From contig CAJXKC010000002.1 of the NCBI GenBank assembly GCA_913055685.1, positions 682,001 through 746,000 of the forward strand: a stretch of 64,000 nt of DNA. The letters are read 5' to 3'. Below, one piece after another: positions 57,132 to 63,512 of the stretch. The notes under the pieces are model-generated. The model saw nothing but the letters and a program-made list of their open reading frames with translations. It was not told the DNA's origin and ran no database searches. Position 1 is the first letter of the stretch. The number at the start of each line of letters is the position of its first letter. This DNA comes from an uncultured Flavobacteriales bacterium (GTDB taxonomy: Bacteria; Bacteroidota; Bacteroidia; Flavobacteriales; Schleiferiaceae). The position numbers and the translations under genes are program-made.

Positions 57132-57212
57132 CGAAGCAGAATATTAATGGCCCCTTAAATTTTCCATTAGGTATTGAATATTGCTTTACTTTTAATTCTC
57201 CAAAAGAATGCC

Positions 57213-58496
57213 ATGTTTAAGTCAGTATCTGTTTTTTTGCTTCTCCTCTTAAGTCCCAGTTTTCTTGTCGCTCAGCCTAGCTACGATGATCTTATAAAGG
57301 TTTTAAAAGATCATGATCAAGTGAAAGGAGCGGTATGTATTCGGAAAGGTGACTCCATCCTTTATCAAAATTACTTTGATACCAAGTCCAGTAATCAAGT
57401 GTACCGGTATCGAATTGGCTCTATATCCAAAACTTTTACTAGCACTTTGGTTTTCATGGCTGTAGAGGAAGGAAAGTTATCGCTCGATGATTCATTAAAC
57501 CAATGGTATCCCTTTTCAAGTTTCAAGGGAATTCAGATAAAGCACTTGTTAGAACACCGCAGTGGCTTGCATAATTTCACCAATGACCCTAACTATAGCC
57601 AGATAATGGAAAAGGCGCAGACCGAGGCGGATATGCTTAAGCGCTTCGCCCAAATGGAAAGGGATTTTAAAGCCGATGAAAAGCAAGAATACTCTAATAC
57701 CAATTTCGTCTTACTTTCCTATATACTAGAGAAGGTTTATCAGCAAGCCTACTCACAAATTTTAGCCACTAAAATTGTAGGTCCTTTAAAGCTAGAAAAC
57801 ACCTACTACCCCGAAGAAAACCCAAGGGACAGCTTAGAGTTAAGTTCATTTACCTACCTAGGTAGCTGGACCAAAGCCAGCAATACCCACCCTAGCATTC
57901 CCCTTGGTGCAGGGGGCATTGTTAGTAATCCGGCCGACCTCTGCATATTCTTTCAAGCCCTACTGGAAGGTAAACTTGTATCTAAGGCCAGTCTTAAGGA
58001 AATGAAAGTGGAGAGTGGCCTGGGAAAAGGTTTAATGACTTTTCCTTTTTACGAGAAGCGTGCATACGGACACAATGGAGGAATAGACGGTTTTATGGCC
58101 CATGCGAGTTATTTCCCCGCCGAAAAAATGAGTATTTCGGTTTGCTTGAATGGTAGTCAATACCCTTTAAACGATTTATTAATCGATCTACTCTCAATAA
58201 GCTTTGATAAGGAAGGCTACCAATTACCTGAATTCAAAAGCATTCAGCTTGGGGAAGCCGAACTAAATCAATATGTTGGCAACTACAAAAGCGCTAATTT
58301 CCCCTTAGACATCAAGGTTTTCGTGGAAGGTGAGCAATTAAAGGCGCAAGCAACTAATCAAGCAGCATTTCCCTTGAACGCCGTCGGCAAGCATCAATTT
58401 GAGTTTAAGGCCGCTGGAATTAAAATGACCTTCGACCCAGAAGCCAATACCATGGCTTTTGAGCAATATAATCTAAAAGTACCCTTTAAGCGTTAA
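57213..58496 (+). CDS. Class C beta-lactamase-like serine hydrolase, secreted
   Basis: The ATG at 57213 (preferred to a TTG at 57174) gives 427 residues with a signal peptide (MFKSVSVFLLLLLSPSFLVA, cut before Q). The penicillin-binding fold motifs are S70-x-x-K73 in 'RIGSISKTFTS', Y160-S-N162 in 'EYSNTNFVLL' and H-x-G in 'YGHNGGIDGF'. A beta-rich C-terminal domain (~340-427) is like other members. Relatives include D-aminopeptidases, esterases and DD-peptidases, so the substrate is open. It ends 2 bases before the ATP-grasp gene start, making it the first of a five-gene unit. Confidence 0.87.
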   Translation: MFKSVSVFLLLLLSPSFLVAQPSYDDLIKVLKDHDQVKGAVCIRKGDSILYQNYFDTKSSNQVYRYRIGSISKTFTSTLVFMAVEEGKLSLDDSLNQWYPFSSFKGIQIKHLLEHRSGLHNFTNDPNYSQIMEKAQTEADMLKRFAQMERDFKADEKQEYSNTNFVLLSYILEKVYQQAYSQILATKIVGPLKLENTYYPEENPRDSLELSSFTYLGSWTKASNTHPSIPLGAGGIVSNPADLCIFFQALLEGKLVSKASLKEMKVESGLGKGLMTFPFYEKRAYGHNGGIDGFMAHASYFPAEKMSISVCLNGSQYPLNDLLIDLLSISFDKEGYQLPEFKSIQLGEAELNQYVGNYKSANFPLDIKVFVEGEQLKAQATNQAAFPLNAVGKHQFEFKAAGIKMTFDPEANTMAFEQYNLKVPFKR

Positions 58497-58498
58497 GC

Positions 58499-59527
58499 AT
58501 GAAAATTTGTTTTCTAATGTATCCCTGGGAGAAAGTAGATCCAGGGCAGGATTCGACCATTCGCATGATTCATGAAGCGGTAAAGCGCGGCCATGAAGTA
58601 GCAATTACCCACCCCTCAAATCTTACCATAAGGGATAGCGTAACGCTTAGTTTATGCAAGCAAGTGGTAAACAAGCAAAAGCCCAGCAATAGCATTAAAG
58701 CCTTTTACAGGGAGGTTGAGTTTCATACCGACATGATGGCTATGAATGGATTCGACGTGATTTTTATGCGCGACAATCCTCCCATGGATGGCTTGGTACT
58801 TAATTTCTTGGACTCTATTAAAGATGATGTTTTCATCATCAATAATATCAATGGCTTGCGTGAAGCCAATAACAAGATTTACACTGCCGCTTACCATGAT
58901 CCGAATCGCGAATTAATTCCTGCCACCCACGTTTCCAAGAACATCGACTATCTATTGCGTATCATTAATGAGTCGGATCAAGATAAAATGATCATGAAAC
59001 CACTGGATGGCTATGGCGGTTCTGGAGTGATCGTAATTGAAAAGTCGGCGATGCACAATATCCGCTCTCTGCTCGACTTTTACATTCACCGCGAGAAAGG
59101 CAAGTCTAATTATGTGATTCTACAAGATTATATAGAAGGAGCCGAAGAAGGTGATGTGCGCGTGCTGATGCTTAATGGTCAGCCTATCGGTGCCTTACGC
59201 AGACGTCCTGCGAGCGGCGATGTGCGATCCAATATTTCCGCCGGTGGTTCGGTTGAGAAATACAAGCTTACTAAGCAAGATAAATACCTCTGTGCGCAAA
59301 TTGGCGAGAAGCTGGTTAAAGACGGTATTTATTATGCCGGGCTGGACATTATCAATGGAAAATTAGTGGAGGTTAATGTAATGAGTCCGGGCACCTTAAA
59401 AGACATTAATAGGTTAAATAAAGTACGATTACAAGAAAAGATAATCGACTACCTAGAAACGGTAGTCGAAACGCGGCGCTCAATGAAAGATGACTTCCGT
59501 CCAGAGATACTGCTAGACAATGCTTAA
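58499..59527 (+). CDS. GshB-like ATP-grasp ligase
   Basis: This 342-residue protein has the preATP-grasp N-terminus (MKICFLMYPWEKVDPGQDST), 'MRDNPPMD' in the middle and ATP-grasp core: 'MIMKPLDGYGGSGVIVI' near residues 161-177, and Mg ligands in 'GLDIINGKLVEVNVMSPG' near residues 281-298. These match the glutathione synthetase (GshB) pattern. No gshA is seen in the window and glutathione is rare in this phylum, so ligation of a different amino acid to a peptide or protein tail is more likely. It overlaps the next gene by 8 bases. Confidence 0.85.
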   Translation: MKICFLMYPWEKVDPGQDSTIRMIHEAVKRGHEVAITHPSNLTIRDSVTLSLCKQVVNKQKPSNSIKAFYREVEFHTDMMAMNGFDVIFMRDNPPMDGLVLNFLDSIKDDVFIINNINGLREANNKIYTAAYHDPNRELIPATHVSKNIDYLLRIINESDQDKMIMKPLDGYGGSGVIVIEKSAMHNIRSLLDFYIHREKGKSNYVILQDYIEGAEEGDVRVLMLNGQPIGALRRRPASGDVRSNISAGGSVEKYKLTKQDKYLCAQIGEKLVKDGIYYAGLDIINGKLVEVNVMSPGTLKDINRLNKVRLQEKIIDYLETVVETRRSMKDDFRPEILLDNA

Positions 59528-61523
59528 ACTTAGCCTAAACGAGGTTCTTCGTCGCATCAAGGATGGACAAACCTTTGAAGCCACCTTAGAGGATAATTCT
59601 TTAAGTATTAAAATTAACCGTTATCTCCCCTACTGCTGCACCGCCATTCATGCTGGTTCTAACTTTAGAAAAGATTTAAAAGAGAAAATTGCCTTAGATG
59701 AGTATGAACGTTGGTATGAGGAAGACCCATATACCGACGCCTTTATTAGCTCCATGCCAATTACCATTGTAGGCCATGACTCTCGTTACGAATACGATTT
59801 AAATCGCCGCCCTGAAGAAGCCATCTATGAAATTGCCTGGGGAAAAAATGTATGGTCTAGTAAGCTAAGTCAGCGTGAAAAACAAAACAGTTTAAGCAAG
59901 CATAAAAACTATTACCGCATTATTGCTGCCCTGGTAGCCAAGCTGGAAGAAAAATTTGGCGCTTGCATAGTTTATGACCTGCATTCCTATAACTGGCAGC
60001 GTTGGAATCGCGAGGTCCCTTTGTTCAATATCGGTTGCGAGCGCATAGATATGAACCGTTTTGGGAAGTACATTGATTTATGGCAAAAAGAATTAGTGGG
60101 GATAGAAATTCCAGGAGTCGAAAATGAATGTGCCATAAATGATGTGTTTTATGGACGTGGTTACAATCTAGAATTCCTCACCGAAAAATTTCAAAATACA
60201 CTGGTACTAGCTACGGAGGTTAAAAAAGTGTATTGCAATGAATTAAGTGGTGAGGACTATCCCGACGTAATTAAAGGCTTACAACGGGGCATTAAAGAGG
60301 CCATTTTAAATTCAGCCCAAGCTTTTGCCAGCGCAGAAACCAATTATAAGCATCAAAAGCCAGGCTCGATGATGGATCGAAGTGAAGATCCTGCTTTGCT
60401 GAAAGTTGATGCCGCTCTGTATAAGCTATTACGCCAATTTGAATTATTGGCCTATGTAAACCCTATGAATACCGCGCGTGAACAGAAGCGCTTCATTAAC
60501 AACAAATTTAGCGAGCCTCCTCGATTTAAATATAGCCCCATAAAGATTAACTCCTACGAACTTAAACAGGCCTTGGGCAGCTTACGCACCCAGGATATCA
60601 GTGACGTTTCGATCCGTCATCTATATGAGTCCGTTATCAATAGCTATTTCGATAAAATTGATCTCCTCTCAAGTTTAAACACGGAGAAATTTCTCTACAA
60701 TTCCTTACGCTACTTCGGTCGCCCTGATCGTAAGGATTTAAAAAATGCCCAATACCTATTGCATTTACCGGCTATTCCCAGTGAACCTAAGCGGATGCCG
60801 CGTATTTCGGTAGAAAGAGCCATGGAGCTTTTCGAGGTAGCTATGAAGCAGTATGGCTTTAAGGGTAAAATTGAAATGAGTAAAAAGGTAATATCGCAAG
60901 TAATGGTCCTTAATTCCAAGAAGACCATTCTCTTTAGACCCGATGCCCGTTTTACTGAAAAGGAGGTAAAAGCGCTAATCGAACATGAAATTGGCGTACA
61001 TATGGTTACCACCCAAAACTCTGCCTTACAAGATCTGAAGGTATTTAATTTGGGATTACCCGTTAACACGAAAACTCAAGAAGGCTTGGCCATTCTTGCC
61101 GAATACTTAAGTGGAAACATTAGTCTTAAAAGACTAAAGAAATTAGCCCAAAGGGTCGTTGTAGTAGATATGATGTGTAATGGCGCCGATTTCATCGAAT
61201 GTTTTAACTATTTGCATTACGACCAAGGGCTTATTAGCGCTGAGGCCTTTACCATAACCACCCGCATTTTCCGAGGTGGCGGGTTCACCAAGGACTTTTT
61301 ATACCTCGCGGGCTTCGTAGAAATCTTAAAAGCCTATGATCAGGGCAAAGACCTAAAGCCACTGTTGGTGGGGAAAACCTCAATGGATTTTTACACGACC
61401 TTAAGTGAAATGATTGAACGAGAACTTATATACGGTCCTAAGTATGAAACCAAGAGCTTTATCAAACCCAGCAATCAGCAGCAAGATCCTATTTACAATT
61501 ACATTATAAGCGGACTAAAATAA
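59520..61523 (+). CDS. N-formylglutamate-amidohydrolase-like domain fused to DUF1704 (MATCAP/QEGLA) zinc carboxypeptidase-like domain
   Basis: This 667-residue protein has two enzyme-like parts. Residues 1-265 resemble FGase-type zinc amidohydrolases: 'TAIHAGSNFR' (41-50), 'DSRYEYDLNRRPE' (87-99) and 'VYDLHSYNWQRWN' (151-163). Residues ~285-667 resemble DUF1704, the family of eukaryotic tubulin tyrosine carboxypeptidases (MATCAP): the HExxxH motif H489-E490-...-H494 ('IEHEIGVHMVTTQN') plus the QEGLA Glu E521 ('TKTQEGLAILAEYL'). Zinc ligands are thus complete. The likely activity is release of a C-terminal residue from a peptide or protein. Both domains are usually separate genes; here they are fused, directly after an ATP-grasp ligase. 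Confidence 0.82.
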   Translation: MLKLSLNEVLRRIKDGQTFEATLEDNSLSIKINRYLPYCCTAIHAGSNFRKDLKEKIALDEYERWYEEDPYTDAFISSMPITIVGHDSRYEYDLNRRPEEAIYEIAWGKNVWSSKLSQREKQNSLSKHKNYYRIIAALVAKLEEKFGACIVYDLHSYNWQRWNREVPLFNIGCERIDMNRFGKYIDLWQKELVGIEIPGVENECAINDVFYGRGYNLEFLTEKFQNTLVLATEVKKVYCNELSGEDYPDVIKGLQRGIKEAILNSAQAFASAETNYKHQKPGSMMDRSEDPALLKVDAALYKLLRQFELLAYVNPMNTAREQKRFINNKFSEPPRFKYSPIKINSYELKQALGSLRTQDISDVSIRHLYESVINSYFDKIDLLSSLNTEKFLYNSLRYFGRPDRKDLKNAQYLLHLPAIPSEPKRMPRISVERAMELFEVAMKQYGFKGKIEMSKKVISQVMVLNSKKTILFRPDARFTEKEVKALIEHEIGVHMVTTQNSALQDLKVFNLGLPVNTKTQEGLAILAEYLSGNISLKRLKKLAQRVVVVDMMCNGADFIECFNYLHYDQGLISAEAFTITTRIFRGGGFTKDFLYLAGFVEILKAYDQGKDLKPLLVGKTSMDFYTTLSEMIERELIYGPKYETKSFIKPSNQQQDPIYNYIISGLK

Positions 61524-61526
61524 ATT

Positions 61527-62810
61527 ATGGCCAGTCTTAACATTCCTGATAGCAATTTAGAACGAGTAGTAATCATTGGCTGTGGTTTTGGCGGATTAAA
61601 CCTCGCTAAAAAACTTGACCATAATCGTTATCAGGTGGTTATGATTGATAAGCATAATTACCACACCTTTCAACCATTGCTGTATCAGGTAGCTACTGCC
61701 GGCTTGGAACCCGATTCCATTGCCTATCCAATTCGTAACATTTTTCGAAAGGTGCCCAACTTTTATTTCCGCTTAGCTGAAGCTCAGGAAATTGATAGTG
61801 ATCGAAAAGTACTGAAATGTAATATTGGTGAACTGGAATTCGACCATTTGGTAATCGCTACCGGTAGCAATACCAATTACTTTGGGATGGAAAATGTGGA
61901 AAAGCTCGCCATGCCAATGAAAACTGTGCCGGAGGCTTTAAACTTACGAAGCCTTATCCTCCAAAATTTTGAAGCCGCCTCCTTGAGTCAGGATTTAAAA
62001 GAAAGAGAGGCCTTAATGAACTTTGTAATTGTTGGCGCGGGTCCGACGGGAACTGAATTGGCAGGAGCCTTGGCGGAGCTAAAAAGTCATGTTTTACCGA
62101 ATGATTACCCCGATTTAGATTTTCGGCGCATGAGTATTCACTTGGTAGAAATGGCCGATAAGGTATTACCTCCTATGTCGGAGTTTTCATCTACTAAAGC
62201 CCTGCAATATCTCGAGAGCTTAGGCGTCCAAGTATGGCTTAATACTGCAGTAAAAGAATACAATGGCAAGGTGGTTAAAACCAATAAAAAAGACCTCCCC
62301 GCCTCTACCCTTATCTGGGCAGCCGGAGTAAGTGGCAATATTATAAAGGGCTTAAAGCCTGATGAAGATTTTAAAGGTGGTCGCTACTTAGTGAATGAGT
62401 ATAATCAAATCGGTGAACACCAATCTATTTACGCCTTAGGCGATGTCGCAGCGATGTGCAGTGAAGCCAAGCCTAAAGGCCACCCTATGCTCGCCCAGCT
62501 TGCCATCCAACAAGGTCAGAATTTAGCTAAAAACCTTAATCGTTCTAAACAAGACAAAGACTGGCGGAAGTTTCAGTATAAAGACATGGGAACCATGGCT
62601 ACTGTAGGTCGAAATAAAGCGGTTGCCGAGCTTTACAATAAAATCATGCTAAAGGGTTTCCCTGGCTGGGCGGTATGGATGCTGGTGCATTTAATCTCTC
62701 TAGTTGGCTTTAGAAATAAGCTCGTAACGCTTATGAACTGGGTAATTAATTACTTTAGTTACGATCGTAAAATCAGACTTATTATTAGGCCTTGGAAGTC
62801 GAAGCTCTAA
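61527..62810 (+). CDS. Type II NADH dehydrogenase (NDH-2)-like flavoprotein
   Basis: This 427-residue protein has 'VIIGCGFGGLNLAKKLD' (FAD site, residues 12-28), 'HNYHTFQPLLYQVATAGLEP' near 42-61, 'VIVGAGPTGTELAGALAELK' (NAD site, ~167-186) and a hydrophobic tail 'GWAVWMLVHLISLVGFRNKL' (~377-396) that anchors NDH-2 enzymes to the inner membrane. It passes electrons from NADH to quinone without pumping. It starts three bases after the fusion gene and ends directly before the TANGO2-like gene; whether it serves that system or just shares its transcript is unknown. Confidence 0.9.
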   Translation: MASLNIPDSNLERVVIIGCGFGGLNLAKKLDHNRYQVVMIDKHNYHTFQPLLYQVATAGLEPDSIAYPIRNIFRKVPNFYFRLAEAQEIDSDRKVLKCNIGELEFDHLVIATGSNTNYFGMENVEKLAMPMKTVPEALNLRSLILQNFEAASLSQDLKEREALMNFVIVGAGPTGTELAGALAELKSHVLPNDYPDLDFRRMSIHLVEMADKVLPPMSEFSSTKALQYLESLGVQVWLNTAVKEYNGKVVKTNKKDLPASTLIWAAGVSGNIIKGLKPDEDFKGGRYLVNEYNQIGEHQSIYALGDVAAMCSEAKPKGHPMLAQLAIQQGQNLAKNLNRSKQDKDWRKFQYKDMGTMATVGRNKAVAELYNKIMLKGFPGWAVWMLVHLISLVGFRNKLVTLMNWVINYFSYDRKIRLIIRPWKSKL

Positions 62811-63512
62811 ATGTGCAGCCTAAGCTACATACCAAAAAAGGGGGCATACATTTTAAGCCATAACCGCGATGAATTGCCACGTCGGGAAAGCTCCTCCAAG
62901 CTAGTTAGGAAAGAATTGGAGGGTCGAGAACTGGTCTATCCAAAAGACTTAAGCGCTGGTGGCACTTGGATAGGTGCAGATAGTAATGGATTAAGTGCCT
63001 GTATTCTAAACGGAGGCTCACTAAGCTATTTACGAAACACTCCCTATCGCGCTAGTCGAGGGACGGTGATCCCTGCTCTTTTAGAATTAGGTAGTATCGA
63101 AAAATTTAAAGGTCAGTGGAGCAGCGAAGGTATCGAGCCCTTTACCTTAATCATCTGCGAAGGTCTAGAACTCTGGCAGCTTATTCATAATCCCAAAGAG
63201 GATATATGGCAAGCTCTTGATGCCCAGAAAGCCCATTTTTGGTCAAGCACCAAGCTTTACCATCCACAAATTCGAGCCAACCGCGCGACGCGGTTTAATC
63301 ATTGGCTTGAGCAAAATAAGAACCCGAGTGCTCAGGAGCTCCGCAACTTCCACCTTAGCACCCAGATAAATGAGCTCGAAGGCGGATTAGTTCTACCCCA
63401 AGGATTCCCACTGAAGACAATGAACTTTTGCCAGATTGAGAAATCTGTCGATAAGTATCAAATCAATTATCATTATCTAGATAAGGGGCTCCGCGATAGA
63501 CATATTTGGTGA
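62811..63512 (+). CDS. TANGO2/NRDE-family protein
   Basis: This 233-residue protein is a bacterial homologue of TANGO2 with the NRDE motif at residues 18-21 ('SHNRDELPRR') and Cys2 after the start Met (MCSLSYIPKK), the Ntn-hydrolase-like candidate nucleophile. 'LSAGGTWIGADSNGLSACIL' near residues 49-68 also matches the family. TANGO2 proteins have been linked to lipid and heme handling; the biochemical role is unclear. The start follows the NDH-2 stop with no gap, the last gene in the unit. Confidence 0.88.
   Translation: MCSLSYIPKKGAYILSHNRDELPRRESSSKLVRKELEGRELVYPKDLSAGGTWIGADSNGLSACILNGGSLSYLRNTPYRASRGTVIPALLELGSIEKFKGQWSSEGIEPFTLIICEGLELWQLIHNPKEDIWQALDAQKAHFWSSTKLYHPQIRANRATRFNHWLEQNKNPSAQELRNFHLSTQINELEGGLVLPQGFPLKTMNFCQIEKSVDKYQINYHYLDKGLRDRHIW

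Follow-up and report, generated by a model that had tools for sequence, protein, structure and literature searches.

A GshB-like ATP-grasp ligase paired with a MATCAP-type carboxypeptidase: a conserved bacterial module that may couple and uncouple an amide

In a 64,000-nucleotide stretch of contig CAJXKC010000002.1 from an uncultured Flavobacteriales bacterium (the window in the following), the gene of an ATP-grasp ligase of the GshB family overlaps by 8 bases, on the same forward strand, that of a fusion protein, in which a domain resembling N-formylglutamate amidohydrolase (FGase) precedes one of the MATCAP family of tubulin carboxypeptidases. The ligase and MATCAP pair is a genuine and widely conserved module, which is apparently uncharacterised. 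Its function may be to couple and uncouple an amide, most likely of an acidic amino acid on a peptide or a small molecule, with the ligase adding the residue and MATCAP, along with FGase or an AstE-type enzyme, removing it; the chances of this reading are judged to be about even. The bacterial MATCAP homologues, which are currently named after flavohemoglobin expression, thereby gain a concrete context made of one ligase and a second hydrolase family.

Co-occurrence of ligase and MATCAP

The initial annotation of the window had suggested that genomes be searched for the two families together, and such a comparison was carried out on 392 evenly drawn Bacteroidota genomes, with a ligase match defined by E <= 1e-20. 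MATCAP is found in 22 genomes and a ligase match also in 22, with 20 genomes common to both, i.e. a ligase match is present in 20/22 MATCAP genomes vs 2/370 of the others, and in all 20 shared genomes the two genes are less than 4 kb apart. The two ligase-only genomes (G076 and G194) contain canonical GshB according to the phylogenetic tree, while the two ligase clades of the module, LIG-A and LIG-B, are confined to MATCAP genomes in this sample. Chance pairing is excluded because of this distribution, the 2 matches in the 370 genomes being ordinary GshB. The Fisher p values (1.3e-31 without the two GshB genomes and 2.9e-29 with them) are nominal, the genomes being related; counted by genus, the figures are 19 and 18 of 179.

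In a further set of 77 related loci, drawn chiefly from named Winogradskyella and Tenacibaculum genomes, the ligase is found at 74, on the same strand in every case (74/74). The ligase-fusion pair is also present in Photobacterium (L100) and in a metagenome-assembled genome of Verrucomicrobiales (L006), and plasmid records of rhizobia and Roseateles carry annotations for the trio of ligase, FGase and MATCAP. For Vibrio vulnificus, the accessible part of the source (PMC3091676) gives VV2_1203 (COG3930) and VV2_1204 (glutathione synthetase) as clade-2 specific. The literature search returned no study on the function of a bacterial MATCAP among the matches listed. The sole match among 50,697 phage records is a MATCAP-like frame (L106:5158-6663) in the entry of Pseudomonas phage Y1, which is unverified and may contain host DNA.

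The enzymes encoded in the window

The ligase (table 1) matches PF02951 (87 bits) and PF02955 (177 bits), both above cut-off, and exceeds the NCBIfam cut-offs of PRK12458 (421.9 vs 408) and PRK05246 (278.9 vs 272); it stays below the TIGR01380 equivalog (238 vs 299) and does not reach the RimK equivalog PRK10446 (55.4 vs 331). Its model has a mean predicted local distance difference test score (pLDDT) of only 72; the closest fold is that of Escherichia coli GshB (1gsa; Z 30.8, root-mean-square deviation (rmsd) 3.0, 306 aligned residues), followed by RimK (Z 23.1), with the LysX/ArgX folds at Z 21-22. The ATP-grasp residues K160, R210, R225, R233, D273, E281 and N283 (E. coli GshB numbering) are identical in 85/85 type-A and 16/16 type-B rows of the alignment, one row of each type having later been placed with canonical GshB. 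R233 had been considered, on remembered numbering, as a residue discriminating GshB, but the expected change is absent, the residue being conserved in all rows. The parallel with tubulin tyrosine ligase (TTL) drawn in the initial annotation reduces to an analogy: the ligase is of the GshB type, and the scan of the window genes gave six Pfam matches at E <= 0.01, none of them to a TTL family.

The fusion is the sole PF08014 match of the source genome, and its AlphaFold2 model has a mean pLDDT of 91.2 and a predicted template modelling score of 0.89. The FGase half scores 56.4 bits with PF05013 (cut-off 28.9), and residues 25-273 superpose on the solved FGase 2q7s (Z 24.6, rmsd 2.3, 238 aligned); FGases were retrieved by structure comparison, although the FGase profile gave no match among PDB sequences. 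The MATCAP half matches PF08014 at residues 323-654 (328.6 bits, cut-off 27), the fusion passes the 'QEGLA' model TIGR02421 (365.7 vs 338.65), and residues 310-667 superpose on human MATCAP 7z6s (Z 25.2, rmsd 3.1, 295 aligned). Alignment positions H200, E201, H205, Q231 and E232 are invariant in 16/16 bacterial MATCAP sequences, whose profile retrieves the human sequence (E 4.9e-15) with the HExxxH, EGLA and C-terminal KD..YL.G motifs aligned.

The initial annotation was partly borne out. The coordinates of both genes and their 8-base overlap are confirmed, the GshB-like and DUF1704/MATCAP assignments are right, both being above the Pfam cut-offs, and the catalytic motifs of the two enzymes (ATP-grasp residues, HExxxH and QEGLA) are intact, as had been claimed. 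MATCAP had been correctly located in the C-terminal half of the partner protein, and the second hydrolase domain, the N-terminal FGase, had been overlooked.

Table 1. Module genes, domains and predicted catalytic motifs in the window, followed by the neighbouring genes.
Feature	Position	Strand	Details
GshB-family ATP-grasp ligase, clade LIG-A	58499..59527	+	342 aa; PF02951 + PF02955
FGase-MATCAP fusion	59520..61523	+	667 aa; Pfam, NCBIfam, AlphaFold2 model
FGase-like domain, residues 1-273	59520..60338	+	PF05013
FGase H44, predicted metal ligand	59649..59651	+	kept in 15/15 aligned module FGases
FGase motif DLHSYN, D153-N158	59976..59993	+	D153, H155, S156, Y157 and N158 kept in 15/15 module FGases
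MATCAP domain, residues 310-667	60447..61520	+	PF08014
Zinc motif HEIGVH (HExxxH), H489-H494	60984..61001	+	H, E and H kept in 16/16; aligns with HEIGTH of human KIAA0895L
QEGLA motif, Q520-A524	61077..61091	+	E521 predicted third metal ligand; bacterial alignment
Serine hydrolase (beta-lactamase fold)	57174..58496	+	PF00144; 2 bases upstream of ligase
NDH-2-like oxidoreductase	61527..62810	+	Pfam scan; 3 bases downstream of fusion
TANGO2-family gene	62811..63512	+	Pfam scan; abuts oxidoreductase gene

Two architectures of the module

The module is found in two gene orders. Type A consists of LIG-A, FGase and a short MATCAP, the latter two being fused in the window, in 7/77 related loci and in L100, L101 and L139; type B consists of FGase or another gene, a long MATCAP (about 605-645 aa) and LIG-B. 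In the tree, the clades of LIG-A (support 1.0) and canonical GshB (0.99) are sisters, with a joint node at 0.947, and the LIG-B clade (0.80) is placed outside LIG-A plus GshB. At two loci (L140 and L141, of genomes G103 and G118), a single FGase and a single long MATCAP lie between LIG-A and LIG-B. An apparent MATCAP-ligase fusion in G231 was rejected, the long frame being, as judged from coordinates, an upstream extension in a different reading frame.

The long MATCAPs contain approximately 250 extra residues, for which no Pfam family match was obtained in the one protein tested. A profile of 12 such N-terminal stretches is matched to the FGase profile by hhalign (95.4%, E 1.7e-8, 203 columns), as compared with 0.1% for the ligase and 5.8% for the MATCAP controls. 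His is absent from both FGase-conserved positions (those of H44 and H155) in 12/12 long MATCAPs, that of L102 having one His two residues away from the H44 position. By these profile comparisons the N-terminal domain of the long MATCAPs is a degenerate FGase. Therefore, in both architectures MATCAP is preceded by an FGase domain, live or dead, either fused to it or as the preceding gene.

Alternation of FGase and AstE

FGase is part of the module in 17/20 ligase genomes of the 392-genome sample. The remaining three (G053, G352 and G273) give no PF05013 match genome-wide. In each of them the immediate neighbour of LIG-B is a gene of the AstE/AspA family (PF24827), which is convergent in G273 and shares the strand of the ligase in the other two. 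The clade formed by these module AstE genes (44-100% identity) is found in those 3/392 genomes only; some match is present in 61 genomes, the others being at 30-40%.

The alternation was examined more widely by using the G053 ligase as query against 397 genomes of the family, which gave matches at E <= 1e-45 in 48 genomes and two ligase subclades, B1, with 54% identity or more to the G053 ligase, and B2, with 38-43%. Of 33 B1 genomes, 31 were read (G053 and G352 included, G627 and G413 left out), with flanks of 7 kb in 23 and of 1.5 kb in the rest. The AstE gene adjoins the B1 ligase on the same strand in 31/31, and FGase within 5 kb of it is found in none of the 23 genomes with 7 kb flanks. 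B2 occupies 19 places, with FGase at nine, including those of G103 and G118, and module AstE at none. Both subclades are present in G650, G462, G619 and G403, and FGase and AstE were never found together at one of the loci examined. From the survey of B1 and B2 loci, ligase and MATCAP therefore emerge as the core of the module and FGase or AstE as a frequent partner.

Two further arrangements were recorded. In G186, a lone MATCAP of 424 aa (L133:8931-10205) lies at a locus without ligase or FGase, two FGases being encoded elsewhere in the genome; and a second FGase is found beside a GCS2-family (PF04107) ligase at G375:C27:50430-52114, G211:C5:281408-283239 and G186:C3:209438-211257.

Proposed reaction and alternatives

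In the proposed reaction the acceptor is most likely a small molecule or a soluble peptide, and the ligase, LIG-A or LIG-B, would spend ATP to join an amino acid to the acceptor carboxylate, glutamate and aspartate being the most likely candidates. MATCAP would take C-terminal residues off the ligase product, and the FGase domain, or the AstE/AspA-type enzyme in other lineages, would cleave the acyl-glutamate or acyl-aspartate bond. It is in this sense that we infer the enzyme activities, the acidic nature of the amino acid, the small size of the acceptor and the direction of the flow. HutG and AstE free glutamate from N-acyl-glutamate, and AspA frees aspartate. Among the relatives of MATCAP, human TMCP2 and Tetrahymena TMCP are described as deglutamylases in the accessible part of the source (PMC10499314). 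Therefore, the FGase/AstE alternation, together with these deglutamylase relatives, suggests an acidic amino acid instead of tyrosine, and the alternation limits the chemistry to a few bonds between an acyl group and an acidic amino acid. A more specific version is advanced tentatively, its chances being well below even, namely a bacterial cycle of glutamylation by the ligase and deglutamylation by MATCAP and an N-acyl-glutamate hydrolase on a peptide or protein, with the eukaryotic tubulin-tail carboxypeptidases recruited from this older bacterial module. If such a cycle were true, it would be a possible origin of enzymes that edit part of the tubulin code.

Several observations weigh against the coupling and uncoupling of an acidic amino acid. 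At 10/19 B2 places neither FGase nor module AstE is present within 5 kb (a count that refers to loci only); therefore, an N-acyl hydrolase is not obligatory next to the ligase-MATCAP pair. MATCAP is also found without the ligase. Of the three related loci that lack it, two extend less than 4 kb upstream, whereas the third, L056, contains MATCAP with no ligase at the locus; two genomes, G186 and G391, have MATCAP only, the gene adjoining a transporter in G391, where neither a ligase match nor FGase is found in the genome; and a Vibrio record contains the fusion without an adjacent ligase. Furthermore, the HutG equivalog TIGR02017 is not among the matches of the window fusion at E <= 0.01, an alphaproteobacterial module FGase reaches 28 with the HutG equivalog (cut-off 279), and the three AstE-like module genes score 45-61 against 306 for the AstE equivalog; because these cut-offs are missed, the substrates may differ from those of HutG and AstE. 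The ligase residues, as aligned, cannot tell GshB from RimK chemistry. Finally, a glutamate symporter (SDF, PF00375), which immediately adjoins the ligase in 61/77 related loci and first looked like support for glutamate, has a close counterpart in 6/17 module-less Flavobacteriaceae genomes used as a control, in 5/6 beside aroC, a mercaptopyruvate-sulfurtransferase-like rhodanese gene (MST) or DCC. Both SDF and MST were dropped as functional evidence because module-less genomes keep the same neighbourhood, which is thus background synteny.

A cycle acting on protein tails, on the model of the tubulin code or of RimK and ribosomal protein S6, would have the ligase add a residue to a protein C-terminus or to a glutamate side chain and MATCAP take it off again. 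In its favour, the fold of RimK is one of the closest to that of the ligase, the MATCAP family works on eukaryotic protein tails (accessible part of PMC10499314) and RimK is induced 52-fold in the Photobacterium damselae experiment described below (accessible part of PMC10308900). However, the conserved third protein that the initial annotation had suggested looking for was not found in the operons and groups compared, where open reading frames of at least 50 aa were clustered. FtsZ and ribosomal protein S6, taken as candidate tail substrates, were rejected, their C-termini showing by eye no consistent difference between 15 module and 13 module-less genomes. The FGase and AstE families hydrolyse small molecules, and their alternation favours a small adduct over the C-terminal protein tail first proposed as target; a protein-tail cycle is unsupported and considered quite unlikely.

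Synthesis, in one direction only, of a low-mass thiol or a small peptide, with the ligase forming the amide and FGase/AstE and MATCAP deprotecting or trimming the product, would suit the presence of a ligase and two distinct hydrolases per operon. It is also in line with the finding of bshC (bacillithiol synthase) beside LIG-B2 in 10/10 loci that lack FGase and AstE (L282, L287, L288, L290, L291 and L294-L298) vs 0/134 other sequences scanned. However, bshC is convergent to the ligase and not co-transcribed with it, and guaA also adjoins in 9/10 of these loci, so that the association may reflect synteny; the rhodanese and transporter genes nearby belong to the background synteny, and no further conserved biosynthetic gene was found in the loci compared. 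One-way synthesis is, on the whole, regarded as unlikely.

A genuine glutathione synthase function of the ligase, with the fusion degrading glutathione or gamma-glutamyl peptides, agrees with the PRK12458 and PRK05246 scores, with 1gsa as the best fold and with the sister position of LIG-A to GshB, but not with the failure to reach TIGR01380, nor with the placement of LIG-A and LIG-B outside the canonical GshB clade. The source genome lacks PF04107 and PF04262, the two gamma-glutamylcysteine-ligase families searched (the search did not include other ligase types), which disfavours the glutathione alternative already raised in the initial annotation. PF04262 was tested in 23 MATCAP genomes, of which 21 also have the ligase, and is absent in all 23, and PF04107 is absent in 6/11 and present in 5/11 such genomes; three plasmid records, which are not genomes, gave no PF04107 match either. 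This account is deemed improbable, and glutathione synthesis by the module of the window is unlikely from the gene content of the source genome.

Relation to known systems

The module shares features with several characterized systems and differs from each of them. With the MATCAP/TMCP tubulin carboxypeptidases (KIAA0895L and KIAA0895), the bacterial protein has in common the fold, HExxxH and the glutamate of EGLA and, with human MATCAP, also the motifs PxN...E...F...P.F.Y and G.F.KD..YL.G; unlike the human protein, to which it is approximately 20% identical, it is fused to or found beside FGase, or fused to a degenerate FGase, and adjoined by the ligase. The ligases have the fold and ATP-grasp residues of GshB and RimK, but form the separate clades LIG-A and LIG-B. 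The N-acyl hydrolases are above the Pfam cut-offs of HutG (PF05013) and AstE/aspartoacylase (PF24827), the FGase fold being alike (2q7s), but they are under the equivalog cut-offs and are fused to, or encoded beside, MATCAP and the ligase. RimK with a peptidase and LysX/ArgX-LysW-LysK are systems for adding and removing residues that combine an ATP-grasp ligase with a C-terminal hydrolase; the module likewise combines the two, with MATCAP as another type of peptidase and with no LysW-like carrier or S6-like target seen in the window between, or directly adjoining, its genes. In 2009, Iyer et al. reportedly surveyed amidoligase-peptidase neighbourhoods with ATP-grasp ligases beside peptidases, and may list this pairing.

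As to expression, the pair is co-induced, in favour of the proposed reaction: the accessible part of a study of P. damselae at 1% vs 3% NaCl gives a 38-fold increase for 'GshB' and a 27.5-fold increase for QEGLA, the two locus tags being consecutive in the series (RS17020/RS17025) (PMC10308900). In the same source a hypothetical gene located a few tags away, A0J47_RS17005, is up 18.6-fold at low salt; it could be a partner (PMC10308900).

Neighbouring genes

In the window, the serine hydrolase, NDH-2-like and TANGO2 genes are local operon partners outside the conserved module, and of the 105 loci clustered, only the window and L002 are represented in their protein clusters. A general-stress sigma-factor promoter upstream of the FGase gene was not found in any of three annotated alphaproteobacterial loci, with one pattern match in the Sinorhizobium meliloti locus. 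TerB may belong to the module locally, because it is missing from the three module-less loci that retain MST. MST-like rhodanese and TerB-like domains are fused within one open frame between the ligase and FGase genes at L024:4840-5994, L033:4840-5994, L011:4829-6004 and L017:4848-6008.

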